A model generated the notes under the pieces. It was not told where the DNA came from. It searched no databases and saw nothing but the letters and a program-made list of their open reading frames with translations. A DNA stretch of 23,780 bases, from the IMG/VR virus record IMGVR_UViG_3300026094_000036, positions 1 through 23,780 of that record; one strand, written 5' to 3'. Source of the stretch: a virus. A program made the position numbers and the translations under genes. Below are positions 2-18,489 of this stretch, piece by piece (positions within the stretch are counted from its first letter, which is position 1; the number at the start of each line of letters is the position of its first letter).

Positions 2-844
2 CGCGATTTCAAGAACGTTTTAAAATGGCAAAGCAAGGTTGAAGAGTTTGAATCCCGCGTATCCAATTGGAAGAATAAGGTAAACCAGTTAAAGGTTGAA
101 GAGCACTCAATTGCGTCGGACATTCAAGATATTAAACGACGAATTGACAAGTATAATCAGACCAAAAAAGAAATCAGAAACAAGAGACGTGCTCAAAAAC
201 GGATTGATCAACTCAATTCAAGACTTGATGGCATCAAACAAAAACTTGATGATGTTTCATCCAGTGTCCAAAGGTATCATAGCAATATCAAAGTTGCAGA
301 GCAAGAACAGCAACGCATTCAGCAAGAACTTGCTGTGTATAGTGAGCTTGATCAAAAATATCAAGCATACGATTATTATCTTGAAGCTGTGAAGCGGGAT
401 GGTGTTCCTTATGAGCTTATTGACCGCACAATGCCTGTTATTGAACAGGAAGTCAACAACATCCTTTCACAGATCGTTGACTTTAGCTTGAACATTGAGT
501 TGGACGGAAAAAACATCAACGCGTACATTGTGTACAACGCAGATACATCATGGGCATTGGAGATTGCGAGTAATTTTGAACGGTTCGTATCAGGACTTGC
601 GATTCGTGTTGCTCTTATAAGCATTGCCAATTTACCGTGCCCAAATTTCCTTGCTATTGACGAGGGATTTTCCGTCGCAGACAGCACAAATCTAAACAAC
701 ATGGGTCTTCTGTTTGAATATATGCGCGACCAATTTGAATTTGTGGTTGTGATCTCACATCTTGACATGATGCGCGATATGGTGAATGGGCTGATTGAAA
801 TTGGGAAAACTGAAAATGGATTCAGTAAAGTGTCGTACATATAA
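2..844 (+). CDS. Rad50/SbcC-like recombination ATPase, gp46 type (C-terminal part, 5' truncated)
   Basis: The frame is open from base 2 and gives 280 residues with no start inside the window, so the N-terminal half, including the Walker A region, lies to the left. Residues 1 to about 115 are a charged, Lys/Glu/Gln-rich coiled coil. The C-terminal ATPase half-domain follows: an ABC-signature-like FVSGLAI (about 195-201), a Walker B FLAIDEGF (216-223) and a switch His in ISHLD (about 252). This order of coiled coil, signature, Walker B and His is that of SMC/Rad50/SbcC proteins. In T4-like phages the equivalent is gp46, which works with the gp47 nuclease to resect DNA ends for recombination-dependent replication. 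The family call is firm; equating it with gp46 is inference from the other T4-like genes here. A hairpin plus T-run follows directly. Confidence 0.85.
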   Translation, partial: RDFKNVLKWQSKVEEFESRVSNWKNKVNQLKVEEHSIASDIQDIKRRIDKYNQTKKEIRNKRRAQKRIDQLNSRLDGIKQKLDDVSSSVQRYHSNIKVAEQEQQRIQQELAVYSELDQKYQAYDYYLEAVKRDGVPYELIDRTMPVIEQEVNNILSQIVDFSLNIELDGKNINAYIVYNADTSWALEIASNFERFVSGLAIRVALISIANLPCPNFLAIDEGFSVADSTNLNNMGLLFEYMRDQFEFVVVISHLDMMRDMVNGLIEIGKTENGFSKVSYI

Positions 845-852
845 ATGCTAAC

Positions 853-889
853 CGTGTGGGGTTTTTCTTACACGCACCCACACGTTTTT
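853..889 (+). terminator. Rho-independent-type terminator after the gp46-like gene
   Basis: An 8-bp perfect inverted repeat (CGTGTGGG at 853-860, CCCACACG at 877-884) with a 16-base loop is followed at once by five T residues (885-889). It lies between the stop of the recombination gene and the first fibre gene, so it would separate a replication/recombination transcript from the late structural block. The loop is long for an intrinsic terminator, so strength is uncertain. Confidence 0.6.
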
Positions 890-916
890 CAATATACCCA
901 CAAGAACAACTATATC

Positions 917-1882
917 ATGGCTCAAGTATTTGGAGTAGAACAGGATGAAATTGTCGCAGGTGACACTGTTAAAGCATCTCACATAAAAACGTTGTATGAT
1001 GTGCTTTCTGGGTCGGTCTCTCCAGATCCGGCGGAGTTCACCATAGATTCAGATGTAACAATTTCAAATGGCATTACAATTTCAAATGGCATTGATGTGT
1101 CTGGTGGCAATATCACTGCAACATCCTCAACGCTCACAGCCGGGGTCTATGAAGCCACATCTACTGATCCCAATGTGACCTTCGGAAATGATTTTAGAAC
1201 TGCTCTAAGTACATACATACAGTCTGAAGCCCCGTCTGCCGATACCTATGTGGATGGCGTATCCTTTGATTCTGGAACAGAAACCCTGACACTCACGCGA
1301 TTTGGAAGAAGTGATCTCACCACGACAATTGATGTAGGATCGGATGTAACCATAACCGGCGGTAGCAACATCAACGTTTCTCAATCCGGCGAAGATTTCA
1401 CGGTTTCAACAACATCCACCCTCACAAACATTACATCCATTGATAGTTCTGGAAATACATCATTTAGTATCACTGTATCAAACCCTTCTAATCCAACGTT
1501 GGTGCTGGCAAACGCTGACAGCATTCTTCGCTCAAATTTGTATGTTGACGGTGATATAGTTGCCACTGGCGATGTTGTTGCGATGGGGTCTCTTCCGAGT
1601 GATGTTTGTCTCAAGAAGAATCTGGTCCAAATAGAAGATGCACTTGGAAAAGTGAATGAAATGGGCGGTTACCATTTTGAATGGGATGAATCCAAAGTCA
1701 AGCACTATCATGGAAAGGATTATGGCGTTATTGCACAGGAAGTTCAAAAAGTAATGCCAGATGCAGTCAAAAAAAGAAGCGATGGATTTCTTGGTGTCAA
1801 TTACACAAGAATCATACCGCTTCTTATACAGGCAATCAAAGATCAACAGCAAGAAATCCAAGACCTCAAGAAGCTTCTTTAG
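917..1882 (+). CDS. Tail fibre/spike-like protein with C-terminal S74 intramolecular chaperone
   Basis: The protein has 321 residues from the ATG at 917. An in-frame ATG at 845 would add 24 residues translated through the terminator hairpin and is unlikely. The body is rich in Ser, Thr, Asn and Gly with beta-helix-like repeats, including a duplicated TISNGI. The last 94 residues match the Peptidase_S74 / endosialidase chaperone domain: SDVCLKKNL (Ser228 and the following Lys pair), then YHFEW, DYGVIAQEVQKVMPDAV, and VNYTRIIPLLIQAI followed by a C-terminal helix. In this family the domain trimerises the fibre and then releases itself by cleaving before the Ser, using the Ser and Lys residues. 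The usual SDIRLK(K/E)N motif has Cys in place of Arg here. It is probably a receptor-binding fibre. The leader before the start is CA-rich with no Shine-Dalgarno. Confidence 0.85.
   Translation: MAQVFGVEQDEIVAGDTVKASHIKTLYDVLSGSVSPDPAEFTIDSDVTISNGITISNGIDVSGGNITATSSTLTAGVYEATSTDPNVTFGNDFRTALSTYIQSEAPSADTYVDGVSFDSGTETLTLTRFGRSDLTTTIDVGSDVTITGGSNINVSQSGEDFTVSTTSTLTNITSIDSSGNTSFSITVSNPSNPTLVLANADSILRSNLYVDGDIVATGDVVAMGSLPSDVCLKKNLVQIEDALGKVNEMGGYHFEWDESKVKHYHGKDYGVIAQEVQKVMPDAVKKRSDGFLGVNYTRIIPLLIQAIKDQQQEIQDLKKLL
1058..1093 (+). repeat. Perfect 18-bp tandem duplication in the S74 fibre gene
   Basis: ACAATTTCAAATGGCATT occurs twice back to back (1058-1075 and 1076-1093), encoding TISNGI twice. 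Identity at the DNA level suggests a recent duplication in the fibre shaft. Confidence 0.9.
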
Positions 1883-1913
1883 AAGAACCCCTGTGTGTAC
1901 GCGTAATGACGAC

Positions 1914-1922
1914 TATATAACC
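1914..1922 (+). promoter_or_regulatory. Possible late promoter TATATAACC
   Basis: A TATATAA element 26 bases before the start at 1940, in a 57-base gap. It resembles the TATAAATA-type late promoter of T4-like phages and the TATATAATA elements in the head region of this window. No -35-like element was recognised. The gene behind it has a T-run and AAA directly before its ATG, with no Shine-Dalgarno. Confidence 0.35.
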
Positions 1923-1939
1923 CCCAATTTTTTTTTAAA

Positions 1940-2980
1940 ATGGCCTTTTCAATTTCAAACTTTCAAAATGAAACAAATGCAACCTCATTTGTTGAGGGTT
2001 CACAGAATGCGGCTCCTGGAACTCTTCCGGGACCGGTCATAACATCCCAGTACGTTGCCGAGTCAGCAACGGCTTCATTGAATCAGAATTACCTTTTACC
2101 AAGTGGAGACACCAAAATGGTAAATGGTTTCCCCGGTAGACCAGACCAAGTTGGTACAGAAATGGGAGGACCAACGCTGGTAGACATGGATTGGTCAACC
2201 ACAGTTTCGGCTGTGACGGACCGCTTAGAACCATCACAAAACACCCCATATTTACTTGGAAACCCCAATAATTACACAAATTTAACAGATAGTCTTGATA
2301 TTCTTGCGTTCAGCAACGGCATCAAGTCAATATCCACAGACAACTTTGGGGATATGAGAGGAAACTATGGAAATACTACTATTACCGGAGAATATCAAGA
2401 TTCCATTGGAAATTCATTTTCTCTCAATGAGCCAATTCAGGTGATTGGAATTGGGTCAGACCATAAGATCAATAGTTCAGAATTTGCCTCGGGATTTGGC
2501 AATAACCCGTATGTATTTAGTATGAATGTAGACTTTACCCTGCAAGTTTACACGGCAGGGCTGGGAACACCTGCAAACTTTGAAGTATCGGTAGAAGTGA
2601 CTGACAACTCACCCGGTCCAAATGCCAATAACGTGACTTCTTTTACGGATACAAACACTGGTCAATATTACACATATGATTCAAACACCCAAATTTTTGA
2701 ATATAGTAGACCATTGCCAGTGTCATATACATATGAAGGACTAACATTGCCAGATGGGGTAACTACTTTCACAACGTCCACTGATGTGCTATGGACTGTG
2801 GATGTTCCGAATAGCACAATTGGCAGTTTCACATTAAGCGGTGTATTGAAAAAAATCAACACAGTTGATTTGAGTCCCATTATCAATCCAGGTGGTCCGG
2901 GTAATCCAGGTGATCCGACTGATCCGGGTGATCCGACTGATCCGGGTGATCCGACTGATCCGCCTACCACTATCCGGTGA
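1940..2980 (+). CDS. Putative virion fibre/adhesin with Gly-Asp-Pro repeat tail
   Basis: The protein has 346 residues. I do not recognise a family. It is rich in Asn, Thr, Ser, Gly and aromatic residues and predicted by eye to be mostly beta. There is no signal peptide or membrane segment, as expected for a virion surface protein. The C-terminus (about 315-346) is a low-complexity Pro/Gly/Asp stretch built from the hexamer GDPTDP repeated three times, after GGPGNP. Such tails act as flexible or collagen-like linkers in phage fibres and decoration proteins. Its place between an S74 fibre and another fibre-like gene supports a role in the tail fibre or virion surface. Function is inferred from composition and context only. 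Confidence 0.6.
   Translation: MAFSISNFQNETNATSFVEGSQNAAPGTLPGPVITSQYVAESATASLNQNYLLPSGDTKMVNGFPGRPDQVGTEMGGPTLVDMDWSTTVSAVTDRLEPSQNTPYLLGNPNNYTNLTDSLDILAFSNGIKSISTDNFGDMRGNYGNTTITGEYQDSIGNSFSLNEPIQVIGIGSDHKINSSEFASGFGNNPYVFSMNVDFTLQVYTAGLGTPANFEVSVEVTDNSPGPNANNVTSFTDTNTGQYYTYDSNTQIFEYSRPLPVSYTYEGLTLPDGVTTFTTSTDVLWTVDVPNSTIGSFTLSGVLKKINTVDLSPIINPGGPGNPGDPTDPGDPTDPGDPTDPPTTIR
2909..2962 (+). repeat. Three perfect 18-bp tandem repeats encoding GDPTDP
   Basis: The unit GGTGATCCGACTGATCCG occurs three times without mismatch (2909-2926, 2927-2944, 2945-2962). The flanks (GGTGGTCCGGGTAATCCA before, CCGCCTACC after) look like diverged units. Slipped-strand copy-number change would lengthen or shorten the tail in frame. 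Confidence 0.95.
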
Positions 2981-3043
2981 CACTTGTGTATATGCTATTT
3001 TGCACACGCACATAAGGACATACAGAATAACACACCAAACGAA

Positions 3044-4378
3044 ATGGCTATTATACCCCAAATATCAGTTGTTAAACCAGATCAAGAAGTGCTGCGGTAC
3101 ACTGGCACAACGGTTGATGATATTAGAAATGCCGTTCAAGAAAATTCATCGGGTGGAGTTGTCCAAATTACAATCCAACAGGGCACATTTACAGGATCTT
3201 CGCCGGTAGAAATTCCTGTAAACGTTTATGTTGTGATTATGCCCGGTGCCAAATTTCAAGAGGATGTGACGGATCTCTTTGTGGATGCCACCAACCCGAC
3301 ATCTCCGTCCCCCAATGTTGCAGATTTCAATTCTCTGCGAACCGGAGGAAGTGGGAATGTTGTATTTACGGTTGAAACAGATGATACATTGGAACAAAAT
3401 ACAACATCCGGAAACATTGACCTTTCCGTGAAATTGTCCACGGACAAAAATTCATTGTTGCTTGATAGTAAAACGTCAGGAGACTTTGATAGGCTCACGG
3501 TGAATCCGCAAAATGTTGTTGCCCGAACGGATTCGGATTTAACCACCATTCCAATGAATAACAACAGCGTGCTTTCTAAAGCAACTGGCAACATTGAAAG
3601 CACACAATTTTCATCAAATTCCATTCTTGCCCGATTTGGAACGGACAACTTGTCAAACGTTCAAATCAGGGATAATAGCATTCTTGCTAAAATTCCCGGT
3701 AACCGGTTTGAAGATTCAGTGCTGTCTGAAAACACGTTATTGGCTCGTCTTCCGGGTTCGGACCTTGATCAGGTAGACCTTGACGATCAATCTTTGATTG
3801 ATGCCTTCAAACTTCAAGCAAGTGACATAGCAAGTGGCGAATTCAAAGACGCGGGGTCTGGAATATCGTATGAATTCAATTCAAATGTCAACGTTGACTT
3901 CAACTTGACGGTGTCCAACAAGACGTTTACCGATGTTATAGAGTCAACAGGTGAAAACGACATCAATGTCTTGTCTGGAGAATCAGTTATTATTCAGGGT
4001 GGAAGAGATTCATTTACGACAACGAATGGAACAATTTTTCTTGAAGGTCAGGTTGGAGAAGGTCCGATTTTTGAAGTGGGGAGAGAAGAAATTTTTGGTT
4101 ACCAAAACTGGGTTGAAATACGAGGATATGATCAATTTCGCATTATCACTGAAGATCCCACAGAAATTAGTGAAGGTGGCGTAGGTCAAGATATGTTCGT
4201 GATTCACAAGGAAGGGTATATTGATCTACCAATCAAGGACACAGTTCCCCGAAACCCGCCGGAAGGATACATTCGCTTTTATGCTCGTTCTGACAATTTG
4301 GGCAACCCCACCTATGATGATGGGCGCGTCATATTCGTCACAAGCGGCGGTGAGCGCACAGAGGTTGATCCCTCGTAA
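3044..4378 (+). CDS. Putative tail fibre protein with 19-residue repeats
   Basis: The protein has 444 residues from the ATG at 3044, after an A/C-rich leader; an upstream in-frame ATG at 2984 overlaps that leader and is less likely. The N-terminal ~90 residues resemble a small beta domain (IRNAVQENSSGG, then ITIQQGTF, as in beta-helix or pectate-lyase-like segments). Residues 157-248 hold five copies of a degenerate 17-19-residue repeat of the form N-S-hydrophobic-L-A-K/R-x-x-G, typical of fibre shafts. The C-terminal part is Gly/Asn/Thr-rich and ends in IRFYARSDN, then DDGRVIFVTSGGE, a strand pattern often found at the end of phage structural proteins. I infer a virion fibre or spike; no enzyme motif was seen. 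Confidence 0.65.
   Translation: MAIIPQISVVKPDQEVLRYTGTTVDDIRNAVQENSSGGVVQITIQQGTFTGSSPVEIPVNVYVVIMPGAKFQEDVTDLFVDATNPTSPSPNVADFNSLRTGGSGNVVFTVETDDTLEQNTTSGNIDLSVKLSTDKNSLLLDSKTSGDFDRLTVNPQNVVARTDSDLTTIPMNNNSVLSKATGNIESTQFSSNSILARFGTDNLSNVQIRDNSILAKIPGNRFEDSVLSENTLLARLPGSDLDQVDLDDQSLIDAFKLQASDIASGEFKDAGSGISYEFNSNVNVDFNLTVSNKTFTDVIESTGENDINVLSGESVIIQGGRDSFTTTNGTIFLEGQVGEGPIFEVGREEIFGYQNWVEIRGYDQFRIITEDPTEISEGGVGQDMFVIHKEGYIDLPIKDTVPRNPPEGYIRFYARSDNLGNPTYDDGRVIFVTSGGERTEVDPS
3512..3787 (+). repeat. Five degenerate 17-19-residue repeats in the fibre gene
   Basis: The protein repeats begin NVVARTDSD, NSVLSKATG, NSILARFGT, NSILAKIPG and NTLLARLPG and are 17, 18, 19, 19 and 19 residues long. They are diverged at the DNA level, so they are old and not likely to expand by slippage. 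Confidence 0.8.
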
Positions 4379-4412
4379 AGCACGGATGGAACACGCACAC
4401 AAAACCAAACAC

Positions 4413-6191
4413 ATGCCCCCAGTTTATATGCCAAAAATTAAAAAGACCCGTCAGAAACGAAATCTTGCAGATACCGAAACGTTCATCACAGATGAGAGCG
4501 AAAACAGTCCACAGTATTTCAACATATCTCAACTCAATCAAGAGCTGTCTCTCGGTAAAAATGGGTTCGCTGTTCAGGGATCAGAAAACCTTAGAGCGGG
4601 CGCGGAAATTGCAATAGAGGTTGTTGATAGTGTGGGTGACGTGATTTATCATGAAGTGAGAAATTATAAAGAGGATGCGAAAAGAATTGTTGGGATTTTT
4701 GTGTATCAAGACACAGCACCGGGACCAGCAACCATCACAGTCCTGTCAGAAGCGATACGTGATGCAAATGGGGTCCCTGTTCCCCCCAACCAAAGAAACC
4801 GCTTTAACGTGAAATGGACGCGCTCGGTAAACGTGAATCCCAACAAATTCAACGATGACCAGATTCGCTTCATACGAGAACCTGAACTCATTTTGAGCGA
4901 TGAAGTTTACACCAAAAAGCAAGGCAAGTTTGCATCGGAGTCTGCGTCATTAGAGCGGATTGGGGATCCGGATTTCACCCCCATTGAAATTCAAGAACAA
5001 GGTGAAGATTTTTCAAGTTTTCCTCTTTACACTTTATCTCAAGGGACCCCACGAGTTAGTGGCACGGTGTATCCAACCAAACAGTGGCCCTATGATTACT
5101 TTATGATCAAAGCCGGTTCGTTTGATTGGATTGATGGCAACATGGACGATGAAACGTTGATCATATCCAAGGATGCACTTCCCTTGAACCGGAACATGAC
5201 AGTGCGATTGACTGAAATTGTGAATGAGCGATATGCTCGGTTTGAAATCGTCACCGAAGAATACAGGGATTATCTCAAAAAATTCAGCTTTGATACCGAA
5301 ACTTTTTTTCTACTGTATAGGAGAGACCCCTTTGCGTATGAGCAGAAAGAGACTGCGTACTACAAAAACATTCAAATTGGTTTCATGCAGACATTGACAG
5401 GAGAATGCATCCGGGCACAGGTGTATAACCGCTTGCGCAATGAACGTTCTTCGTTTGAATTTGTTGGAAACTTTGAAATTGAACCTGTTGAGTTGTTGAC
5501 CGACATTGAAGATCAGAGAACCGAACTTGTGAGTCCTGTTGGGGTGATTGATTCTCAATCCCATATTGATCGGTTCTTCACTTCAGATTCAAATTGTAAC
5601 TTGAACTTCAACAATGATTTTCTTGCAAAGAGTGTGCAGATCCAACCCAATGCCACGGGATTAGCTGAAGGAACGTATCAGGCAAGTATAGATTTCCAAA
5701 ACCCCGATATTCAAAGGTTTACGTTCTTTTCATACTCGGAATACACGGTATCATTTCAAGCAGCTTTTAATTCCGAAACGCCCATTGATAGCACACTTGA
5801 GGTTTTTTTAACCGGGTCTCCATTTTTTGATCGGATGGTCAAGATTGGCGATGTTGATCTGAATCAAGAAACGTACCACATAACAACAGTTAGTGAAAAC
5901 TTCGTCCCTGACCAGACAGCAGAAAGTTTCCAGTCCGACAGTACAGCAACCAGCTTTGAGATCATTTTTAAGGTCAATTCTCCACAAACCGATGTTTCTC
6001 ATGAATGGTACGTCCGAGACATAAGTCTGCAACCCGCCCAAGAAGCCGGGTTCAGCCCAGACTACAGTATACTCCGTGTGCCCATAGACACCACTAAATA
6101 CGGTTCAAACGAGCTATCGGATTTAGAGTATAAAGTTGATCTGTTTGACATCAATGGCAACAAAGCTGGTGTGAACATTGTGTCAGGATGA
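4413..6191 (+). CDS. Large virion structural protein, family not recognised
   Basis: The protein has 592 residues from the ATG at 4413, which follows a CA/A-rich leader like those of neighbouring genes. In-frame ATGs at 4386 and 4428 are alternatives. The N-terminus is basic (MPKIKKTRQKRN). A stretch at about 55-125 with AGAEIAIEVVDSVGDVIY and alternating hydrophobics looks like an Ig-like or carbohydrate-binding beta sandwich. The middle is rich in aromatic and acidic residues (FDWIDGNMDDE, YRDYLKKFSFD). The last 150 residues again look like a beta sandwich (YTVSFQAAFNSETPIDSTLEVFLTGS). No signal peptide or membrane segment. Following two fibre genes, it is probably a tail or fibre-associated protein. 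Its last 9 bases overlap, tail to tail, the 3' end of the minus-strand gene at 6183-6362. Confidence 0.55.
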   Translation: MPPVYMPKIKKTRQKRNLADTETFITDESENSPQYFNISQLNQELSLGKNGFAVQGSENLRAGAEIAIEVVDSVGDVIYHEVRNYKEDAKRIVGIFVYQDTAPGPATITVLSEAIRDANGVPVPPNQRNRFNVKWTRSVNVNPNKFNDDQIRFIREPELILSDEVYTKKQGKFASESASLERIGDPDFTPIEIQEQGEDFSSFPLYTLSQGTPRVSGTVYPTKQWPYDYFMIKAGSFDWIDGNMDDETLIISKDALPLNRNMTVRLTEIVNERYARFEIVTEEYRDYLKKFSFDTETFFLLYRRDPFAYEQKETAYYKNIQIGFMQTLTGECIRAQVYNRLRNERSSFEFVGNFEIEPVELLTDIEDQRTELVSPVGVIDSQSHIDRFFTSDSNCNLNFNNDFLAKSVQIQPNATGLAEGTYQASIDFQNPDIQRFTFFSYSEYTVSFQAAFNSETPIDSTLEVFLTGSPFFDRMVKIGDVDLNQETYHITTVSENFVPDQTAESFQSDSTATSFEIIFKVNSPQTDVSHEWYVRDISLQPAQEAGFSPDYSILRVPIDTTKYGSNELSDLEYKVDLFDINGNKAGVNIVSG

Positions 6192-6362
6192 AAATCCGGA
6201 AGACTTTAGGTTCTCCATTATTTCAAGCCTTTTCTTTTCTGTGTATGACCCCCATTTGATCAAATGGGTGCGTGTTCTGCCACATGAAGAACAGATGTTT
6301 TTGTTGGGGTCAAATTGGCATTCCTTGGTGCAAGGACTTGAAGGGTTGGTGGTATTTTTCAT
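6183..6362 (-). CDS. DUF1289-like small cysteine protein, encoded antisense
   Basis: The minus-strand frame from the ATG at 6362-6360 to a TGA at 6185-6183 gives 59 residues. The pattern SPCTKECQFD, then ICSSCGRT, then IKWGSYTEKKRLEIMENL matches DUF1289, whose members read SPC-x3-C, C-x2-CGRT, W-x-x-(M/Y)-x-x-x-E-(K/R)-x-x-I-(M/L). The four Cys (11, 15, 24, 27 by count) suggest metal binding; the biochemical function of the family is not established. It is the only convincing minus-strand gene in the window and overlaps the 3' end of the preceding + strand gene by 9 bases. Its leader (about 6363-6385) is A/T-rich without a Shine-Dalgarno, like other genes here. The + strand reading through the same DNA lacks any recognisable domain. 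Confidence 0.8.
   Translation of the reverse strand: MKNTTNPSSPCTKECQFDPNKNICSSCGRTRTHLIKWGSYTEKKRLEIMENLKSSGFSS
6251..6268. repeat. 18-bp perfect palindrome
   Basis: CCCATTTGATCAAATGGG is its own reverse complement over 18 bases, with a central TGATCA. It lies inside the DUF1289-like gene, where it encodes part of THLIKWG. It may be a coding coincidence or an operator-like site. Confidence 0.9.
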
Positions 6363-6437
6363 GGTGATATTGTTATATTATTGTGTGAATGATATTCCGT
6401 GTATCTATACAAAACAAGGACACGGCGTGTTTCAAAT

Positions 6438-7916
6438 ATGCAGCACTCATTTTCCAACTTCTCTAAACATCAAATGAATCTTAAACAGAACATTGACAAA
6501 ATCGGTTCCTTCTTGGCTGAAAAATACCTTTTGGAAATAAAGCGTGAAAACATGCCCCAAGTTAATTCGGACATGACACAGGATATTTTGACCGTTTTCA
6601 AAGAAAATGGGGTTCTTGTGACACGTGAAAAGGTGGAATGTGATTCATTGCATCCCACACAGGAAAATTATTCTTCAGAGAAAGTTGATGATATAGTTGA
6701 AAAACTCAAAGCAAACAAAACGTGTCTGCCTTTGTTTGTAAGTGAGGATTATCATATACTGGATGGGCACCATCGTTGGTTGGGAGGAAAGAAGATTCAA
6801 GACAACTCAAATGGAAAGGTTGTTAAACTTCCAATCATCCGGATTCAGCTTCCCAAAAACAAAGCACTCGTGCAACTCATTGATGCGTGCAACAAAGTGG
6901 ATGAAGAAACGGATTCATTGAAACACGCGGTTATTTACCCTGGCTCATTTCCACCTTTTCACAAAGGAGATTACAGTGAGTATTGCAAACTTAAAGATCG
7001 GTTTGGTTCAAACAACGTGTATATCGTAGCATCAAACAAAACATCACCACGTCAGCCTCTCACATTCAGTGACAAGCAAGAGGTGATCACCAAAATGTAT
7101 CCCATACCAAAAAGTATGGTATGTGAGGTTGAAAATGTGTACAACCCAGTAGAGATTTTTGATGATCTTGATGTGTCAAATACGGTGGTCGTGTTGGCCT
7201 TGACCGAAACCCAGATTTCTAAACTTGAAGAAAACGACAACCTGAAAAGATCGTTCAAGGAATATAAATTTGTTGATCTGGAAACGTTTGATTCGGGGAC
7301 GTGTTATTACCACCAAGTAACCCCACAGGATCATGTGTCTGTTTTCTTGTCGGGAGAAGATGGAATTTCGTTGGATCGCTCACACATCATTGAAGCGTTT
7401 GCGAATAAACAGTTGTCTGATGCATCCAAGAAAACGCTGTTCAAAGAAATCTTTGATGGGTGGAATCAGGATATTTTTGAAATTCTGGTTGAGAAATTCA
7501 ATGTGTCCAATGTTTTGGGCGGCAAAATGATCCAAGACATGATTAATGCAGGGATCGTTGATATCAAGGAGTGTCAACAAGTGGTTCTTGGTAAATTCCA
7601 ATCTTTGTTTGAGTCAACCCAAACTCAGGCAGTTGGAGCGGATGATGGACCCGCAACATGGTGGGAAACGCAAGATGAATTTCAGAAACAGAATGCCAAA
7701 CTTGCAGAACGAATGGGGTTTGAAGTGATTGATCAGATTGGAACAAAAACACCCGACTCCCTTAAAACGGATGTACTCCCATACGCAAGTTTTTATCCGA
7801 TTGGAAACAATAGCCAGTCTCCAGTCCAGAATCCGGACAGCGTGTATTATCCATATGTCCGTTCTCTTGCTCGCATGTTAGGCTTTCAAATTATTGATTA
7901 TCTACATGACAAATGA
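6438..7916 (+). CDS. ParB-like domain fused to HIGH-type nucleotidyltransferase domain (variant active site)
   Basis: The protein has 492 residues from the ATG at 6438; in-frame ATGs at 6399 and 6474 are alternatives and I cannot decide between 6438 and 6474. Residues about 55-140 form a ParB/Srx-like domain, with DYHILDGHHRWLGGKKI around 104-120 (the DGHHRW signature). Residues about 163-330 look like a cytidylyltransferase/NMNAT-type Rossmann domain starting VIYPGSFPPFHKGDY. The canonical HxGH is HKGD here, so the last active-site His is replaced by Asp and activity is doubtful. ISLDRSHI may stand in for the ISxTxxR motif. The C-terminus has a twice-repeated element (LAERMGFEVID and LARMLGFQIID). 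The stop overlaps the next start as ATGA, so the two products are probably translationally coupled and may act together. Confidence 0.75.
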   Translation: MQHSFSNFSKHQMNLKQNIDKIGSFLAEKYLLEIKRENMPQVNSDMTQDILTVFKENGVLVTREKVECDSLHPTQENYSSEKVDDIVEKLKANKTCLPLFVSEDYHILDGHHRWLGGKKIQDNSNGKVVKLPIIRIQLPKNKALVQLIDACNKVDEETDSLKHAVIYPGSFPPFHKGDYSEYCKLKDRFGSNNVYIVASNKTSPRQPLTFSDKQEVITKMYPIPKSMVCEVENVYNPVEIFDDLDVSNTVVVLALTETQISKLEENDNLKRSFKEYKFVDLETFDSGTCYYHQVTPQDHVSVFLSGEDGISLDRSHIIEAFANKQLSDASKKTLFKEIFDGWNQDIFEILVEKFNVSNVLGGKMIQDMINAGIVDIKECQQVVLGKFQSLFESTQTQAVGADDGPATWWETQDEFQKQNAKLAERMGFEVIDQIGTKTPDSLKTDVLPYASFYPIGNNSQSPVQNPDSVYYPYVRSLARMLGFQIIDYLHDK

Positions 7917-9733
7917 AAAATACGGTTATATCATACCCCGGAAGATTTCAACCATTTCACAATGGGCACTATCAGGTTTGTGAACACTTGAAGACCATGT
8001 TTCCGGATGGAAATTTGGTCATGACCCTGTCTAATGTCGTTGAGTTCCCCCGTAGCCCGTTTTCATATCAACTTAGAGAAAAACTGATCAAGTCTGCAAT
8101 TCCGGGCGCTCGTGTTGTATCAGCGTCCAATGTGTATGCTCCGGATGTGCATGGCATATCAGAATCAGATGATGCGTTATATGTTGTGGCCGTTAGTGAG
8201 AAAGACCCTGAGCGGTATCAGCGATTGATTCAAGGTTCATACTTTTTGCCATATCATCCGGATGATATGGAACTTTTGCCTGCATGTCGGCATGGGTATG
8301 TCGTTCGTGTCCCTACATATGGCAACAACGAAGATTCAACGTGTCCATTGAATGCAACACAACTTCGGGCAAAATTGATGTCCAGTCAAGGTGCATGGCG
8401 CGAGTTTGTTGATGAAATGCCATGTGACAATAGTATCAAGCTATACAACCAAATGATTGCTGAATTGGCAATGCGTCAAGATTCTTGCTATTCCGTGTGT
8501 GATCACAATGTTAATGATGGAACCGTTGCATCGGGACACATCATGCATCCTTATGAAGACCATCAGATATCGTTTTGTGATATTGTAGACATGTTTCACA
8601 GCGTTGTATCTGACGACAGGAAGATGCGGTTACAGGAAAAGGTTGATGGGCAAAATATCAAGGTTACACGAAATTGCGATGGAGAAGTCAGGTTTGCGTG
8701 TAATTTGACCCATCGCAAAAATGGTGCCAAGAATGCCATGTCGCGTGATGACGTCATTGAACGATATTCAAAGTACCAAGATCCCAATGTCCTTGAGACA
8801 TTCAAAAACGCGTTTGATGCGTTTGAACTTTTCATGGAAGATTTTTCTTATATTGGCATGAAACAAGGAACGCGTTTTTGGAATGCAGAGATTGTAAACC
8901 CCGATAATAAAAATGTCGTAAAATACCATGATAAATACATCGTCTTGCATGGTCTAATGGGCTGTGATCAAGACGGTCGTGAAGTCAATTACTTCTCTTA
9001 TGATCCCGGTATGTATGGCTGTTATAACGGATTCAACTTTGTTGGTCCAATAGAAGTAGGCTTACATTCTGAAGCTTTGCTATTCTTCAAAGAATCAACA
9101 ATGTCCCTCAACAATTTTTTTGCTAATTTCACAGTACCCGACGCGGCAAACGGAATTTCGTTTCTTGAAGCATTGAATGTATTAGATGATAACAAAAATG
9201 ATGATGTGCCGATCCATCACCACATCCGTGAAGAGTTTTTGAATGAAATCGCACAATTTGCTTCTTCAAATCAGCACGTTCTTTCAATGGAACAAGCGAT
9301 TGGACTTACACAACGATTTGCATATAACCAAAAATCAGGTGTCACGGGATGTAATTTGCGAAAAATGCGAAGCATGTTTGATGATGATGCATTTCTTGAA
9401 AAATGCATCTCTCGGTTTCAAAACGGATTTGATTCCAAGTATGTCAACAAAGTTCGTCATTTTGTTGAACACATTGGGACTGCTATCAAAAAGCGTGTTT
9501 TCAATACGCTAAATGACGGTACAGATACAACAGGGATTGATGTATCCGAGATAGAAAAAATGAACCGTGTCGTTTCTAAGCGTGGGCACGATGATATGTG
9601 CGTGCATGTTGGCAATGACATTCCGAAATTTGAAGGGATTGTTTTTACATACAACGATAAAACGTACAAAATCACCGGTATGTTTAGGCGTATTAACTAT
9701 TTATTGGGATGTATTAAATATGGGCGGATTTGA
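7913..9733 (+). CDS. Bifunctional nucleotidyltransferase (HNGH) + RNA-ligase-like protein
   Basis: The protein has 606 residues. Residues 1-165 are an intact HIGH-superfamily nucleotidyltransferase: YPGRFQPFHNGHY at the N-terminus and NATQLRAKL near 147-155 as the ISxTxxR-like motif, as in NMN adenylyltransferases and cytidylyltransferases. From about 215 the fold changes to a covalent nucleotidyltransferase (DNA/RNA ligase-like) domain: motif I EKVDGQN with candidate nucleotidyl-Lys243, FWNAEIVNP as a motif III-like element, EGIVF (motif IV) and YKITG (motif V) near the C-terminus. Both active sites look complete. From family knowledge, the first domain would join a nucleotide to a phosphorylated substrate and the second would seal or adenylylate nucleic-acid ends via a lysyl-AMP intermediate; the actual substrates are unknown. 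It starts within the upstream stop codon (ATGA overlap), as in a two-enzyme operon. A role in RNA repair or NAD metabolism during infection is inference. Confidence 0.8.
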   Translation: MKNTVISYPGRFQPFHNGHYQVCEHLKTMFPDGNLVMTLSNVVEFPRSPFSYQLREKLIKSAIPGARVVSASNVYAPDVHGISESDDALYVVAVSEKDPERYQRLIQGSYFLPYHPDDMELLPACRHGYVVRVPTYGNNEDSTCPLNATQLRAKLMSSQGAWREFVDEMPCDNSIKLYNQMIAELAMRQDSCYSVCDHNVNDGTVASGHIMHPYEDHQISFCDIVDMFHSVVSDDRKMRLQEKVDGQNIKVTRNCDGEVRFACNLTHRKNGAKNAMSRDDVIERYSKYQDPNVLETFKNAFDAFELFMEDFSYIGMKQGTRFWNAEIVNPDNKNVVKYHDKYIVLHGLMGCDQDGREVNYFSYDPGMYGCYNGFNFVGPIEVGLHSEALLFFKESTMSLNNFFANFTVPDAANGISFLEALNVLDDNKNDDVPIHHHIREEFLNEIAQFASSNQHVLSMEQAIGLTQRFAYNQKSGVTGCNLRKMRSMFDDDAFLEKCISRFQNGFDSKYVNKVRHFVEHIGTAIKKRVFNTLNDGTDTTGIDVSEIEKMNRVVSKRGHDDMCVHVGNDIPKFEGIVFTYNDKTYKITGMFRRINYLLGCIKYGRI

Positions 9734-9831: not shown

Positions 9832-10473
9832 ATGTCAACCCCAGTCAATATCAACGAATTCTCTAAATCGCCCAAACAGCAGAGCGCACTCAAAACCATT
9901 TTTCAGGGTGGGAATCCGGCAGATGAAAATGTACAAATATCTCGCCGCCCGGATCTAAATGTTGGACAAGCACCACCTGACGTTGAACCCGGTGATAAAT
10001 GGAAAGACCGCAAAGGTAACATATGGGAACAAAAAAAAGGGTATAAGATCAATCATGGCAAAACATATGGAAAGACGCGGGGAGTTCCGCTACTTTGTCC
10101 GGAATGCGAAACGGTCATGACCCACCGCCTTGATAGCAAGATGTATAAAATACATGGCATGTGTTTTGATTGTGTAATCACTTTTGAAGACGAAATACGA
10201 AAAGCTGGCAAATGGGATCTTTATGAAAAACAGCGTGTGGCTGCAAACATGAAATCATGGATCCGGGATCAAAAAAGCCAATTTCAAGAATTTTTGAAGG
10301 CGGGGGACCGTGAAGAGTATGTGAAGGATGAGTTTGGAAATGTAGAAACATGGACCGCCGATATTGATCTTGATCAACTCAAGTCAGATTTTAATGAATA
10401 TATCTCTATCTACCAATCAAAACTTGAAGCCATTGAATCAGAAATTGAAGAATTGAAAGAAAAAGGTTCTTGA
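9832..10473 (+). CDS. Conserved phage zinc-ribbon protein, function unknown
   Basis: The protein has 213 residues. After a disordered Pro/Gln/Asp-rich N-terminus (1-50) comes PGDKWKDRKGNIWEQKKGY, then a four-Cys zinc-ribbon-like module (Cys89, Cys92, Cys111, Cys114: CPEC and CFDC). The C-terminal ~90 residues are a charged helical region ending in a coiled coil (EAIESEIEELKEKG). I recall proteins of this layout, GD-x-W plus WEQ-x-x-GY, then Cys pairs, then helices, in large marine phages, where they are annotated as hypothetical; this is recollection, not a search. The 98-base gap before it has a TATAAAAC element at 9801-9808 and a CA-rich leader with no Shine-Dalgarno. Confidence 0.7.
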   Translation: MSTPVNINEFSKSPKQQSALKTIFQGGNPADENVQISRRPDLNVGQAPPDVEPGDKWKDRKGNIWEQKKGYKINHGKTYGKTRGVPLLCPECETVMTHRLDSKMYKIHGMCFDCVITFEDEIRKAGKWDLYEKQRVAANMKSWIRDQKSQFQEFLKAGDREEYVKDEFGNVETWTADIDLDQLKSDFNEYISIYQSKLEAIESEIEELKEKGS

Positions 10474-12895: not shown

Positions 12896-14551
12896 ATGTC
12901 AACAAATCAACGCCAAGAAATTCAGAAGGCGCAACGGCAAGAATATTTGAAATGCGCAATGGATCCAGCGTATTTCATGAAGAAGTATTGCAAGATTCAG
13001 CACCAACAGAAAGGCAAGGTAAAATTCAATCTATATCCGTTTCAAGAACGAACTCTTGAAGAAATTCAAGAGAACCAGTATAATGTGATTTTGAAAGCCC
13101 GTCAAATGGGCATTTCCACGTTGATGGCAGCATATGCTCTTTGGCTCATGACATTCAATAGCGACAAGAACATTCTTGTCGTTGCACTCAAACAGGCAGT
13201 TGCACGCAACCTTCTCAAGAAGACCAAAATCATGCACGCAAACCTTCCAGGGTTCTTGCGTCTCAAACGTGAGGTGGACAATCGTCTTTCCATTATGTTT
13301 GAAAATGAAAGTCAGATGTCTGCCGAAACAACCACCGGCAACGCCGGGCGGTCCGAAGCACTTTCACTTCTTATCATTGATGAAGCAGCTTTCATCAAAA
13401 ATGCACGCGAACTGTGGTCAAGCATTCAAGCAACTCTTTCTGCGTCCGAGGGGGACGCAGTTGTTCTTAGCACACCTTCTAACATCGGAACGTGGTTTCA
13501 TGAAACGTGGAGCAATGCTGTTTCTGGGGCTGATTTGGTAGATTCCACCGAAAATAAAGAGATTTGGAGTGGTGTCGGAGAAAATGACTTTCACCCCATC
13601 AAGTTGCATTGGTCCTTGCATCCAGACCGAGATGCGGCATGGAGACGTGAACAAGACAACAAGTTGCCTGCAAGCAAGGCAGCACGAGAATATGACACGT
13701 CATTTGAAAGCAGTGGTGACACTGTCATTGGAATGGAGCGCATTCGTTCCATTGAAAAATCGCAAGTAACCAACCCCCAATACAAAATTCCGGTTTTCAA
13801 CCAACGAGATTTTTGGGTGTGGCAAGAACCGCAACCCAACACGTCATATGTTGTGAGTTCAGATGTTGCGCGGGGGGATGGCGATGGCGATTATTCAACA
13901 ATTCAAATCTTCACAACCGATGAAATTGAACAAGTTGCTGAATATCGGGGGCATGTTCGCCCTGACCAACTTGGAAATCTTCTTGTCCGATTCGGGACCA
14001 TGTATAATGATGCGTTAATTGTCGTTGAACGCAATAGCTACGGTTACAGCACGCTCCGAACGATCATGGACCGCGATTACAAGAATTTGTTATACACGTC
14101 TAATGATCTTCACATCATTGACACCAAGGGCGGTAAAAGAAACAACAAGAAGGTGCTTCCCGGCCTTTACACAAGCCGGAAAACCCGTCCACTCATTGTT
14201 TCTAAGTTTGAAGAGTATATAAGGAAAGAATATGCCACTATTAGGAGTAGCAGGCTTTGTGAAGAACTCAAAACATTTGTATGGAAAAAGAACGGAAAAG
14301 CGGAGCATGTAAGCGGGTATCACGACGATCTTATTTTTGCTGCGATGTTCATGTTTTGGGCACGAGATACTGCAATCCGATTGCGAGGAGACGCTGAACG
14401 GCAAAGCCATTCAGCGATGAGAAACATTCAATCAAAAAAAGGTTCCAATTTCAGAAGGAATGCCGGTGGGTTGTATACACCTGGATCCGCCAAAGGCAAT
14501 CCGTGGCGAGACCAAAATACAGGGCAAGATTTGGGATGGTTGTTGGGTTGA
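12896..14551 (+). CDS. Terminase large subunit (T4 gp17 type)
   Basis: The protein has 551 residues, a normal length for the family, and is the DNA-packaging motor that docks on the portal. The N-terminal ATPase contains Walker A-like KARQMGIST (67-75; same variant class as T4 gp17), Walker B LLIIDEAAF (158-166) and coupling motif LSTPSN (191-196). The C-terminal RNase H-fold headful nuclease has acidic residues in SSDVARGDGDGD (Asp323), LIVVERNSYG (Glu378) and GYHDDLIFAA (Asp477/478). A basic, Gly/Asn-rich tail follows (about 500-551). The start at 12896 lies 8 bases after the previous stop. Both catalytic sites look intact, so the enzyme should be functional. Confidence 0.95.
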   Translation: MSTNQRQEIQKAQRQEYLKCAMDPAYFMKKYCKIQHQQKGKVKFNLYPFQERTLEEIQENQYNVILKARQMGISTLMAAYALWLMTFNSDKNILVVALKQAVARNLLKKTKIMHANLPGFLRLKREVDNRLSIMFENESQMSAETTTGNAGRSEALSLLIIDEAAFIKNARELWSSIQATLSASEGDAVVLSTPSNIGTWFHETWSNAVSGADLVDSTENKEIWSGVGENDFHPIKLHWSLHPDRDAAWRREQDNKLPASKAAREYDTSFESSGDTVIGMERIRSIEKSQVTNPQYKIPVFNQRDFWVWQEPQPNTSYVVSSDVARGDGDGDYSTIQIFTTDEIEQVAEYRGHVRPDQLGNLLVRFGTMYNDALIVVERNSYGYSTLRTIMDRDYKNLLYTSNDLHIIDTKGGKRNNKKVLPGLYTSRKTRPLIVSKFEEYIRKEYATIRSSRLCEELKTFVWKKNGKAEHVSGYHDDLIFAAMFMFWARDTAIRLRGDAERQSHSAMRNIQSKKGSNFRRNAGGLYTPGSAKGNPWRDQNTGQDLGWLLG

Positions 14552-16122: not shown

Positions 16123-18489
16123 ATGCCAGTCAAAAGCAATGCAGAAAAGAGCGGTACGATTCGGCAGGCTTTGAACAAGCTGTTTGGAAGTGAAGTTATT
16201 GTTCGTTCCTCGTCTGGAGGCCAAATCAAGACCGTGGATGTGCGTCAATCTCAAGCTGTGACGCGGTCGTTTCATCACGATAAATACAGACGCATGTATC
16301 AGTCTGGAATGAGTTCATACGCACCCCAGACGGCTGATAAGTACGGGTTTCATGCGAACCGAGTTTCATTATTCCAAACGTATGAAGAAATGGATGAAGA
16401 TCCCATCATTTCTTCTGCACTTGACATTTATGCAAATGAGGCAGCAACCAAAGATGCATTTGGTGAGATTGTTGACGTGGAATGCGAGAATGGCGAGATC
16501 AAGAGTGTTCTTGAAAACTTGATTTACGACATTTTGCATGTTCAAGACAATGCGCGTTGGTGGGCACGCAGTGTTGCAAAGTATGGTGATCTTTTCATGA
16601 AACTTGAAGTGTATCAAGATCACGGTGTTGTCAATGTCCAACCATTGAGTCCATACAACATCCAGCGATATACAGATCCCGATACAGGTCGCACACAGTT
16701 TTCATATGAAGAAGCGGGACATTCTACCCCCAACCAGTCGGACATTACATTTGAAGAATGGGAAATTGCCCATTTCCGATTCACAAACGACAGCAATTTC
16801 TTTCCATACGGAAAGGCTCTCATTGAAAATGGTCGTATGATATGGCAACAGTTGACCCTTATGGAAGAAGCCATGTTGATCCATCGCATCATGCGAGCGC
16901 CTGAAAAGCGTGTATTCAAAATTGACATTGGAAACATTGAACCGGATGCCGTGGATTCGTACATGAAAGGCATCATCAATGATATTCAGCAGACGCCTCT
17001 CATGGACCAACAGACCGGTCAATATAACCTTGAGTTCAATATGCGCAACATGCTTGAGGATTTTTTCTTGCCTGTTAGAGGGCGTGAGAACGGCACAGAG
17101 ATCAATAGTTTGCAGGGTCTTCAGTATCAGGTTATTGAAGACGTGGAGTACCTTCGCAAAAAGCTGATGTCTGCACTCAAGGTCCCAAACGCATTTCTTG
17201 GATATGAGAATGAGATACAGGGAAAATGTATTGACCCAAAGACAGAGATTCCGTTGATTGGCGGTGAAACAGTCACCGCCGAAGAAATTATTGATCACTA
17301 CAACAATGATGACGGAGATTCAGAGCCTCTTTACACATACTCTTATGATGAAGAGTCTGGTGAAATGGTTGCCGGAGAAATTGAGGCAGCAGAAATGACG
17401 CGGCGCAATGCTGAAGTTGTTGAAGTTGAGTTGGATAATGATGAAACCATTGTAACAACACCAGATCACAAATTCATGACGCGTGACGGTGATTGGATTG
17501 AGGCTCAAAATTTGGAGCCTGGACAACCACTCATGCCTCTTCAGAACGCCATTCAATCTACACATAAAAATCATGAGGTTGTGTCCGTTACAAAGCTGGA
17601 AGGCAGAATTGACACGTGTGACATTCAAGTAAAGAAGTACCACAACTTTGCAGTGTCGGCGGGTGTGATCATTCATAATTCAACTTTGGCCCAAGAAAGC
17701 ATCAAATTTGCCAATGCAGTTCGTAACTTGCAAGAATCTCTTGCACAGGAACTCAAAAAGATTGCATTGGTGCATCTTTATACCAAGGGGTATAAAAATC
17801 AGGATCTCGTTGGATTCAACTTCAAATTCACAAACCCGTCTATTGTTGCAGAGCAGGAGCGAATTGAATTTTTGAGCCGGAAGGCGGGCGTGGCACGTGA
17901 TTTGAGAGAATTGCCTATACACTCCGATAAGTGGATTGCAAAGAACATTTTCAACATGTCCGAAGAAGAGTACGAAGAGCAGCTTCGGGAGAAAGTGCGA
18001 GATTGGAAGCGCAATTTCCGCAAAGAACAGATTGAGCGAGAAGGAAATGATCCTGTCAAGACAGGTCAGAGTTATGGAACACCCGGAGACCTTGCAGCAT
18101 CCGGCAATGTCAATCTCAAAAACATTGACATGGACGATCTTGCCAAAAAAGGTGAAGACGGTGATAAAGGGGATAACAAGCCAAAAGGAGAATTTGATAG
18201 TGTCACAAAACAAGATGACGACAAATACGGACTCAAAGACATGTCCAACTTGCTTCGTCCAAAATCAAGCGATCTCAAACAAAATTTCCAGGGGGGCAGC
18301 CCTTTGGCTCTTGATTCGGTAGCCCCAAACCACAAAAAGAATCTGATTCAAGAATCTTTGAAACAAGAAATCATGAATGAGCAGTCCCGACAAGATCAAG
18401 AATGGGAGATCCCTGATGATAGTTTCATGAACGAAAATATCATTGATTCATTCCCCGATCCAAATGATGCAATGGAAATCCTTGAATGA
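16123..18489 (+). CDS. Portal vertex protein (T4 gp20 type) containing an in-frame mini-intein
   Basis: The protein has 788 residues as translated, 637 after removal of the 151-residue intein (369-519). The portal is the dodecameric ring at the head vertex through which the terminase pumps DNA. Matches to the gp20 family include SYAPQTADKYGFHANR, DEDPIISSALDIYANEA, RIMRAPEKRVFKIDIGN, MLEDFFLPVRGRENGTEI, EDVEYLRKKLMSALKVP and, after the intein, TLAQESIKFANAVRNLQ, then LKKIALVHLYTKGY. The intein splits the conserved GK-(S/A)-TLAQE segment. The C-terminal ~130 residues are an acidic, disordered tail containing LIQE and IMNE, possible prohead-protease sites. A TATAAAAAC element precedes the gene, and a terminator follows at 18497-18527. 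Confidence 0.95.
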   Translation: MPVKSNAEKSGTIRQALNKLFGSEVIVRSSSGGQIKTVDVRQSQAVTRSFHHDKYRRMYQSGMSSYAPQTADKYGFHANRVSLFQTYEEMDEDPIISSALDIYANEAATKDAFGEIVDVECENGEIKSVLENLIYDILHVQDNARWWARSVAKYGDLFMKLEVYQDHGVVNVQPLSPYNIQRYTDPDTGRTQFSYEEAGHSTPNQSDITFEEWEIAHFRFTNDSNFFPYGKALIENGRMIWQQLTLMEEAMLIHRIMRAPEKRVFKIDIGNIEPDAVDSYMKGIINDIQQTPLMDQQTGQYNLEFNMRNMLEDFFLPVRGRENGTEINSLQGLQYQVIEDVEYLRKKLMSALKVPNAFLGYENEIQGKCIDPKTEIPLIGGETVTAEEIIDHYNNDDGDSEPLYTYSYDEESGEMVAGEIEAAEMTRRNAEVVEVELDNDETIVTTPDHKFMTRDGDWIEAQNLEPGQPLMPLQNAIQSTHKNHEVVSVTKLEGRIDTCDIQVKKYHNFAVSAGVIIHNSTLAQESIKFANAVRNLQESLAQELKKIALVHLYTKGYKNQDLVGFNFKFTNPSIVAEQERIEFLSRKAGVARDLRELPIHSDKWIAKNIFNMSEEEYEEQLREKVRDWKRNFRKEQIEREGNDPVKTGQSYGTPGDLAASGNVNLKNIDMDDLAKKGEDGDKGDNKPKGEFDSVTKQDDDKYGLKDMSNLLRPKSSDLKQNFQGGSPLALDSVAPNHKKNLIQESLKQEIMNEQSRQDQEWEIPDDSFMNENIIDSFPDPNDAMEILE
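17227..17679 (+). other. Mini-intein (HINT domain, no homing endonuclease) in the portal gene
   Basis: The 151-residue insert begins with Cys1 (CIDPKTEIPL, block A), has block B at TTPDHKFMTRDG (Thr78, His81), block F at CDIQVKKYHNF and block G VIIHN, ending His150-Asn151 followed by extein Ser+1. All residues for standard class 1 protein splicing are present. Length and content leave no room for a LAGLIDADG or HNH endonuclease. The flanking exteins join as ...NEIQGK-STLAQE..., restoring the gp20-family sequence. The linker between blocks A and B is acidic. Confidence 0.92.

Follow-up and report, generated by a model that had tools for sequence, protein, structure and literature searches.

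The IMG/VR virus record IMGVR_UViG_3300026094_000036 (positions 1 to 23,780, a 23.8-kb stretch hereafter called the window) contains two adjacent genes, geneA and geneB. The interpretation that we favor, at roughly even confidence, is that they are a split form, with a duplicated nucleotidyltransferase (NTase) domain, of a widespread phage enzyme that processes nucleic-acid ends and serves the repair of RNA (tRNA) ends. The parts of this enzyme would be a SerK/ParB-like nucleotide-binding domain, a HIGH-type NTase resembling nicotinamide mononucleotide (NMN) adenylyltransferases (NMNATs), and a new family of RNA-ligase fold acting through lysyl-AMP. That the ligase-fold family is linked to an NTase is very likely. 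The ligase of the geneA/geneB pair has a known fold, of which it represents a new branch, and its nearly obligate partnership with an NTase is new as well; the family is apparently unnamed in the sources searched. The motif and domain make-up of the two genes is beyond chance, as the residues invariant among relatives and a homologue of a huge phage with all domains in a single open reading frame (ORF) demonstrate.

The preliminary description of this DNA had noted adjacent genes with an ATGA overlap, two NTases, and fusions to a ParB-like and a ligase domain, and ORF coordinates and motif positions bear this out. The overlap suggests translational coupling, and both frames are open across 3.3 kb. 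Besides the ATG at 6438, geneA has alternative in-frame starts at GTG 6399 and ATG 6474. The features of the two genes are as follows:

6438..7916, plus strand: geneA, SerK/ParB-like domain, degenerate HIGH NTase and DDGP module; ORF from ATG
6504..6914, plus strand: SerK/ParB-like domain of geneA, with DGHHR at 6762-6776 (domain alignment, PDB profile, phrog_26754)
6927..7520, plus strand: NTase1 of geneA, with PGSFPPFHKGD at 6939-6971; HKGD replaces HxGH
7590..7913, plus strand: DDGP module of geneA, with ADDGPATWW at 7638-7664; matches the NTase-to-ligase block of phage LR756508 (locus L003)
7913..9733, plus strand: geneB, NTase2 and RNA-ligase-fold domain; ATGA overlap with geneA
7913..8440, plus strand: NTase2 of geneB, NMNAT-like, with PGRFQPFHNGH at 7937-7969 (amino acids 9-19) and LNATQLR at 8348-8368 (amino acids 146-152)
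8486..9730, plus strand: ligase-fold domain of geneB, with K243, E326, E574 and K586
8531..8575, plus strand: family signature of the geneB ligase ahead of motif I, SGHIMHPYEDHQISF
8633..8656, plus strand: motif I of the geneB ligase, QEKVDGQN, with the predicted adenylated Lys243
8699..8701, plus strand: Cys263 codon of geneB; Arg in dereplicated relatives
9629..9679, plus strand: motifs IV and V of the geneB ligase, FEGIVFTYNDKTYKITG

The ligase-fold domain and its nucleotidyltransferase partner

The motifs of the lysyl-nucleoside monophosphate ligase superfamily (KxDG, the motif III Glu, the EG of motif IV and the motif V Lys) are present in geneB as K243 (EKVDG), E326, E574-G575 (EGIVF) and K586 (YKITG), and they are likewise found in all 142 domains that were left after dereplication of 242 ligase domains at 90%. 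In this set E242, K243, D245, G246, E326, E574, G575, K586 and T588 are 100% conserved, and H209, H212 and H346 are 99% conserved. The family has an extra conserved block, GHxxHPxED, ahead of motif I; neither this block nor the DDGP module was listed in the preliminary description.

An AlphaFold model of the window ligase domain was built with 22 of the family's 25 representatives (all but the three that come from named phage records) and has a mean predicted local distance difference test score (pLDDT) of 69 and a predicted template modelling score of 0.61, with a better core. The best 50 rows of a Foldseek search of the PDB with this model consist of 43 ligases, 2 capping enzymes from the same superfamily and 5 unrelated proteins; an archaeal RNA ligase comes first (E 5.7e-3), followed by a fungal tRNA ligase and T4 Rnl1. 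The titles of all 50 best VIA rows are those of ligases, and the list is headed by the fungal tRNA ligase Trl1 (Z 7.9, root-mean-square deviation 4.9, 208 residues aligned), with a Naegleria RNA ligase (Z 7.8, 4.0, 181) and T4 Rnl1 (Z 7.8, 4.8, 192) close by, at Z values below 8 that may reflect a mere common arrangement. The structure prediction proposed in the preliminary description thus retrieved the ligase core with modest scores, and it is the consistency of the rows, together with the preserved motifs, that argues for the ligase fold.

The predicted core, KxDG, the motif III Glu, EGxV and the motif V Lys are shared with the ATP-dependent RNA ligases (Trl1, Naegleria Rnl, T4 Rnl1 and the archaeal enzymes). 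The new family differs from them in a helical region placed between motifs III and IV, in having almost nothing past motif V (the window protein ends about 20 amino acids after it), in a K-x-T motif V, in its own GHxxHPxED block, in its tie to a HIGH NTase, and in PF09414 (RNA_ligase) scores that stay under the cut-off. No curated match to the domain was found in Pfam, NCBIfam or PHROGs. The canonical RNA_ligase exceeds the PF09414 cut-off in just 3 of the 18 long records bearing the new ligase, and the latter is therefore more than an add-on to it.

NTase2 belongs to the HIGH superfamily, with 26.3 bits for PF01467 (cut-off 21), 32.0 for TIGR00125 (cut-off 27.7) and HNGH. NTase1, at 14.2 bits for PF01467 (cut-off 21) and with HKGD, falls short of membership, and an SxTxxR-type motif was looked for in it and not found; a profile of the NTases in related loci, built on a seed pattern that geneA lacks, detects it at E 1.7e-26. 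Only the second NTase thus has an intact HNGH, as had been claimed, and by its motifs NTase1 is probably inactive. The two are 32% identical across 99 amino acids, and both match the single NTase of LR756508 (E 1.5e-27 and 5.6e-20). Among 244 loci the duplication is seen in the window only; where a second NTase is matched elsewhere, it is a small protein on its own and of another NTase type or, in one case, part of a split gene. The proposal that an active and an inactive NTase form an obligate pair had to be given up as a core idea, since relatives manage with one.

The nearest solved relatives of the NTase family profile are archaeal NMNATs (1f9a, E 1.9e-8; also 1ej2), and NMNAT models rank among the top NCBIfam matches, yet every NMNAT equivalog score is far under its cut-off (20.2 against 181.2 for the NadM model TIGR01527). 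The suggestion that the domain may be of NMNAT type is supported as far as kinship goes. The family NTase shares GRFQPFHxGH and SxTxxR-type motifs with NadM-type NMN adenylyltransferases (MJ0541 1f9a, 1ej2), whereas many of its members have GxHH or TGAH rather than HxGH: matches in dereplicated loci comprise 50 with HxGH, 35 with GxHH, 15 with TGAH, two singletons (the window HKGD being one) and 25 that the pattern could not read.

Loci were picked by the ligase alone, and domain calls and dereplication relied on our own profiles (NTase at E < 1e-3); because the 244 loci include repeats of the same contig, we prefer counts over the 142 dereplicated ones. NTase and ligase share one ORF in the order NTase-ligase in 72 of these and in the order ligase-NTase in 33, and in 14 the NTase lies in another ORF, at most 300 bp away in 11 and across larger gaps in 3. 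Contig or ORF ends make 19 loci uninformative, so an NTase is present in 119 of the 123 informative loci and was not found in four (L014, L239, L241 and L242). As a control in the same loci, an NTase occurs in 105 of the 142 ligase ORFs versus 14 of the 425 remaining ORFs that are 300 amino acids or longer, and 13 of the 22 non-ligase NTase ORFs sit within 300 bp of a ligase ORF. That fusion occurs in both orders strongly argues for a joint function of NTase and ligase. The ligase-only genes of L239, L241 and L242 occur in a different setting, among large ORFs common to all three.

Relatives and fused modules

A tblastn search of 50,697 phage records with geneB matched three of them, the huge phages LR756508 and LR756500 and Microcystis phage Mel-JY01. 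The ORF at 5578-8325 of LR756508 (915 amino acids) holds the ParB-like domain, NTase, DDGP module and ligase together; geneA aligns with its first part (34% identity) and geneB with its second. This single-ORF homologue upholds the earlier view that the two proteins belong together and, having one NTase, identifies the window as a split form with two copies of the NTase. As judged by eye, the 725-amino-acid ORF before it and the 214-amino-acid ORF after it match window ORFs 4221-6191 and 9832-10473, and in LR756508 the terminase then follows the latter.

A scan of IMG/VR with the ligase alignment found at least 573 relatives among 599 candidates, and two further scans found at least 528 and at least 592 among 600 each, with overlaps between scans left in; as each scan took at most 600 candidates and kept 80, these totals are lower bounds. 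A scan with the single geneB sequence was unproductive. GTDB contigs yielded 10 ligase loci, all in metagenome-derived genomes. A ligase-NTase gene (L093, 8007-10418) is located in the 2.8-Mb "chromosome" of a WOR-3 metagenome-assembled genome, with runs of N in the locus; it may be a provirus or a piece of phage that was scaffolded there by mistake.

The domain with DGHHR is fused in L003, L031, L223 and L224, whereas in the window and L022 it stands in an ORF apart from the ligase. It had been labelled ParB, and a ParB/Srx-like domain is indeed present (phrog_26754, ParB-like, E 2.7e-5 with the geneA N-terminus), but its closest solved relatives are the free serine kinases SerK and SbnI. The profile of the domain finds 1vk1 (E 5e-4), SerK 5x0j (E 9e-4) and SbnI 5ujd (E 0.08) in the PDB, which argues for a SerK-like domain rather than a DNA clamp, though the SerK model NF053625 scores 13.9, far under its cut-off of 380. 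Identity with the partition protein ParB was rejected on these PDB relatives, the DGHHR motif and a TIGR00180 score of 14.8 against 58.45.

Other modules vary among relatives. A P-loop kinase (AAA_33/Zeta_toxin), fused or separate, occurs in 20 of the 244 loci (6 of the 142); since its PDB relatives are weak (seryl-tRNA(Sec) kinase, E 0.02), the label "polynucleotide kinase" is taken from phrog_505 (E 7.1e-6) and the Pfam matches. An RNase_T exonuclease is carried by L022 and L024. In L087 an ORF at 835-6558 encodes 1907 amino acids with a CCA-adding enzyme (PF01743, E 6.4e-30; PDB 1miv, E 4.9e-32), NTase and ligase; CCA-adding enzymes are specific for tRNA. Residues 1-90 and 735-1027 of this protein match L080 and residues 1067-1907 match several members, with the CCA module between them, and an assembly chimera is therefore unlikely; the 735-1027 block drew no Pfam or PHROG match in the searches made. 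A PDB search with the N-terminal piece of L037 was unproductive. The CCA-adding enzyme, kinase and exonuclease fit the role at nucleic-acid ends that the preliminary description had suggested.

The window itself has terminase, portal and prohead protease genes of T4 type in T4 order:

12896..14551, plus strand: terminase large subunit, the kept downstream neighbor of NTase-ligase genes

The portal gene (16123-18489) contains an intein (Intein_splicing PF14890, E 9.8e-14, amino acids 381-519), and the 1243-amino-acid portal ORF of L022 and L024 is likewise interrupted by large insertions. Near the contig start (335-844) lies the C-terminal remnant of an SbcC/gp46-like gene (phrog_77, E 6.5e-13).

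Possible functions of the enzyme

If the enzyme repairs RNA, the ligase would take AMP from ATP (or NAD) onto Lys243 and pass it to the 5'-phosphate of an RNA, rather than DNA, end; the activated end would then be joined to a 3'-OH, which would mend RNAs, whether tRNAs or others, that host defence has cut, assuming that the chemistry runs in this direction. Kinase, CCA-adding and exonuclease modules like those fused in relatives would prepare the ends, and the NTase would supply or use an adenylylated small molecule coupled to, and possibly shared with, the ligase reaction. In the window NTase2 would perform this step and NTase1 would be a structural remnant. RNA repair is favored mainly because the ends of nucleic acids are what the fused partners act on and tRNA is the specific substrate of the CCA-adding enzyme. 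In the available part of PMC7824862, phage RNA ligases are accompanied by kinases, CCA-adding enzymes and other NTases, and there is no mention of an NTase-ligase fusion. T4-style and jumbo-phage RNA repair (polynucleotide kinase, RNA ligase, CCA enzyme, RlaP) likewise combines kinase, ligase and CCA activities; the new system differs in being one polyprotein in some members and in its HIGH-type partner NTase.

A number of observations weigh against RNA repair, some of them concerning the ligase assignment itself. The model has a mean pLDDT of 69, with weak E-values in Foldseek and Z values short of 8 in VIA; by sequence, the ligase family profile finds no ligase among PDB chains, PF09414 is over its cut-off in none of the 25 ligase members and weak in 7 (best E 0.011), and geneB has no PF09414 match in the Pfam search. 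Motif V of the window ligase is K586-I-T588, with Thr in 142 of 142 relatives, which places it outside Rnl1/Rnl2 proper, of which K-x-K is the mark. The CCA fusion is seen in a single locus, with a CCA enzyme anywhere in 1 of the 18 long records, RNase_T-type domains act on DNA too, and a tRNA gene search of the window found none. An Arg stands about 19-20 residues past Lys243 in 99% of relatives (rows missed by the pattern show it by eye) and is Cys263 in the window; its T4 Rnl2 counterpart is essential, and the window copy may therefore be impaired.

This last point leads to the possibility that the window pair is merely decaying, with a dead NTase1 (HKGD), a ligase deprived of its conserved Arg, and a gene split and duplicated relative to LR756508. 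We regard decay as quite unlikely, for neither frame is interrupted within the 3.3 kb, the Lys, the two Glu and the Lys of motif V have all been retained, and the ATGA overlap suggests coupled translation; the window copy is an unusual and possibly weakened member of the family. A broader alternative is that of a polyvalent late protein, perhaps injected, that joins unrelated effectors of several kinds (SerK/ParB-like, kinase, NTase, ligase, CCA enzyme) with no common pathway among them. The modules vary round a common scaffold in ORFs of up to 1907 amino acids at a late-gene position, and polyvalent proteins with ParB-like domains are described in PMC5512222. Such modules would normally shuffle freely, however, and here the NTase is missing in just 4 of the 123 informative loci and the pair also occurs as stand-alone adjacent genes, so that this alternative seems rather unlikely.

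The genomic position raises the question of DNA. Of the 66 NTase-ligase fusions that are informative after dereplication, 65 have a terminase within 5 kb downstream, which would suit a packaging or virion role, for example the sealing of nicks or repair of ends in concatemer DNA just before head filling, in keeping with a gene directly upstream of the terminase; DNA ligases are also present in the fold lists and an exonuclease is among the fusions. We consider this unlikely: a terminase neighbor is found in 0 of 12 informative ligase-NTase fusions and 0 of 13 informative loci with a separate NTase and thus marks one branch rather than the enzyme as such, while RNA ligases lead the fold lists and the CCA-adding enzyme of L087 is fused. 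Alternatively, the NTase could act as an NMNAT, regenerating NAD from NMN for an NAD-using ligase or against NADase defences. Its kinship to archaeal NMNATs agrees with this, as does a weak match of 1 of the 25 ligase members to the NAD-ligase adenylation domain (E 0.01). Against it, besides the low equivalog scores, only some 30 residues separate the family signature from motif I, which would leave little room for an NMN-binding Ia domain. Further, according to PMC9503650 NadM phages without exception possess NadV as well, whereas NadV, the partner that makes NMN, was found in 1 and not in 17 of the 18 long records. NAD salvage as a general role is thus less likely, the earlier suggestion that it counters NAD depletion by the host is weakened, and we judge the whole NAD alternative distinctly improbable. 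Repair coupled to KptA was also rejected as a general role, with PF01885 over its cut-off in 1 of the 18 long records and weak in one more.

A candidate sister system and its implications

The pair formed by DUF6267 proteins and a "cytidyltransferase" looks like a sister system of the NTase-ligase enzyme. Protein gp127 of phage HTVC008M (L122, 6819-8051) is a DUF6267 protein (PF19782, E 3.4e-135; function unknown in Pfam) with HLEHxED, KWDG, EGYV and K in the same order as the motifs of the new ligase, encoded three genes ahead of the "cytidyltransferase" gp130. DUF6267 relatives occur in 469 phage records. In ACG-2014e and S-CAM1 the NTase is the next gene and overlaps DUF6267, and an NTase with GR[FLM][NQ]PP[TH]xGH lies within 5 kb in 43 of 50 DUF6267 loci of IMG/VR that have at least 2.5 kb downstream. 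A DUF6267 model built from 47 of 71 complete ORFs (80% dereplicated) has a pLDDT of 81.9 and the same layout as the window ligase model. VIA lists ligases in 47 of the best 50 rows for this DUF6267 model, with a Naegleria RNA ligase on top (Z 7.5); by Foldseek alone the best 11 rows are non-ligase, CorA being first. Comparison of the two families by hhalign, with single sequences and profiles, was weak (probability about 6%) and falls short of proving homology. PF19782 has no match in the window proteins and is over its cut-off in 0 of the 18 ligase-bearing records, and the new ligase was found in 0 of 3 Kyanoviridae records searched. The two systems also differ in setting and in architecture: in the records viewed, DUF6267 of Kyanoviridae lies among replication genes and the NTase-ligase branch of the new ligase by the terminase, and no NTase fusion was found for DUF6267, whereas the new ligase is commonly fused. 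Since the DUF6267 pair is present in cultured cyanophages and a pelagiphage, the question is open to laboratory testing.

A further alternative, which we hold to be very improbable, is that NTase and ligase carry out successive steps of a single new reaction: the NTase would make an NAD-like adenylylated small molecule, AppX, and the ligase would employ it, in place of adenylylated RNA, to append X-phosphate to nucleic-acid ends and so cap or tag RNA or DNA. Such a reaction would account for the fusion of an NMNAT-type enzyme with a ligase in both possible orders, and it would exist in two forms across T4-like phages, that of the new ligase family and that of DUF6267 with its NTase.

The ligase-fold family has at least many hundreds of phage members in IMG/VR and no model in the Pfam, PHROG and NCBIfam searches. 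Its pairing with an NMNAT-like domain in nearly all informative loci is not described in the available parts of the RNA-repair texts examined. An NTase-ligase fusion appears in no title or abstract start returned by full-text literature searches, though a mention in the RNA-repair work of Burroughs and Aravind is possible, and the same kind of search returned no paper on DUF6267. If the enzyme indeed mends RNA, it would constitute a phage ligase lineage beside Rnl1/Rnl2 and a new means of countering defences that cut tRNA; if NTase and ligase indeed share their chemistry, the product may be a new end modification.

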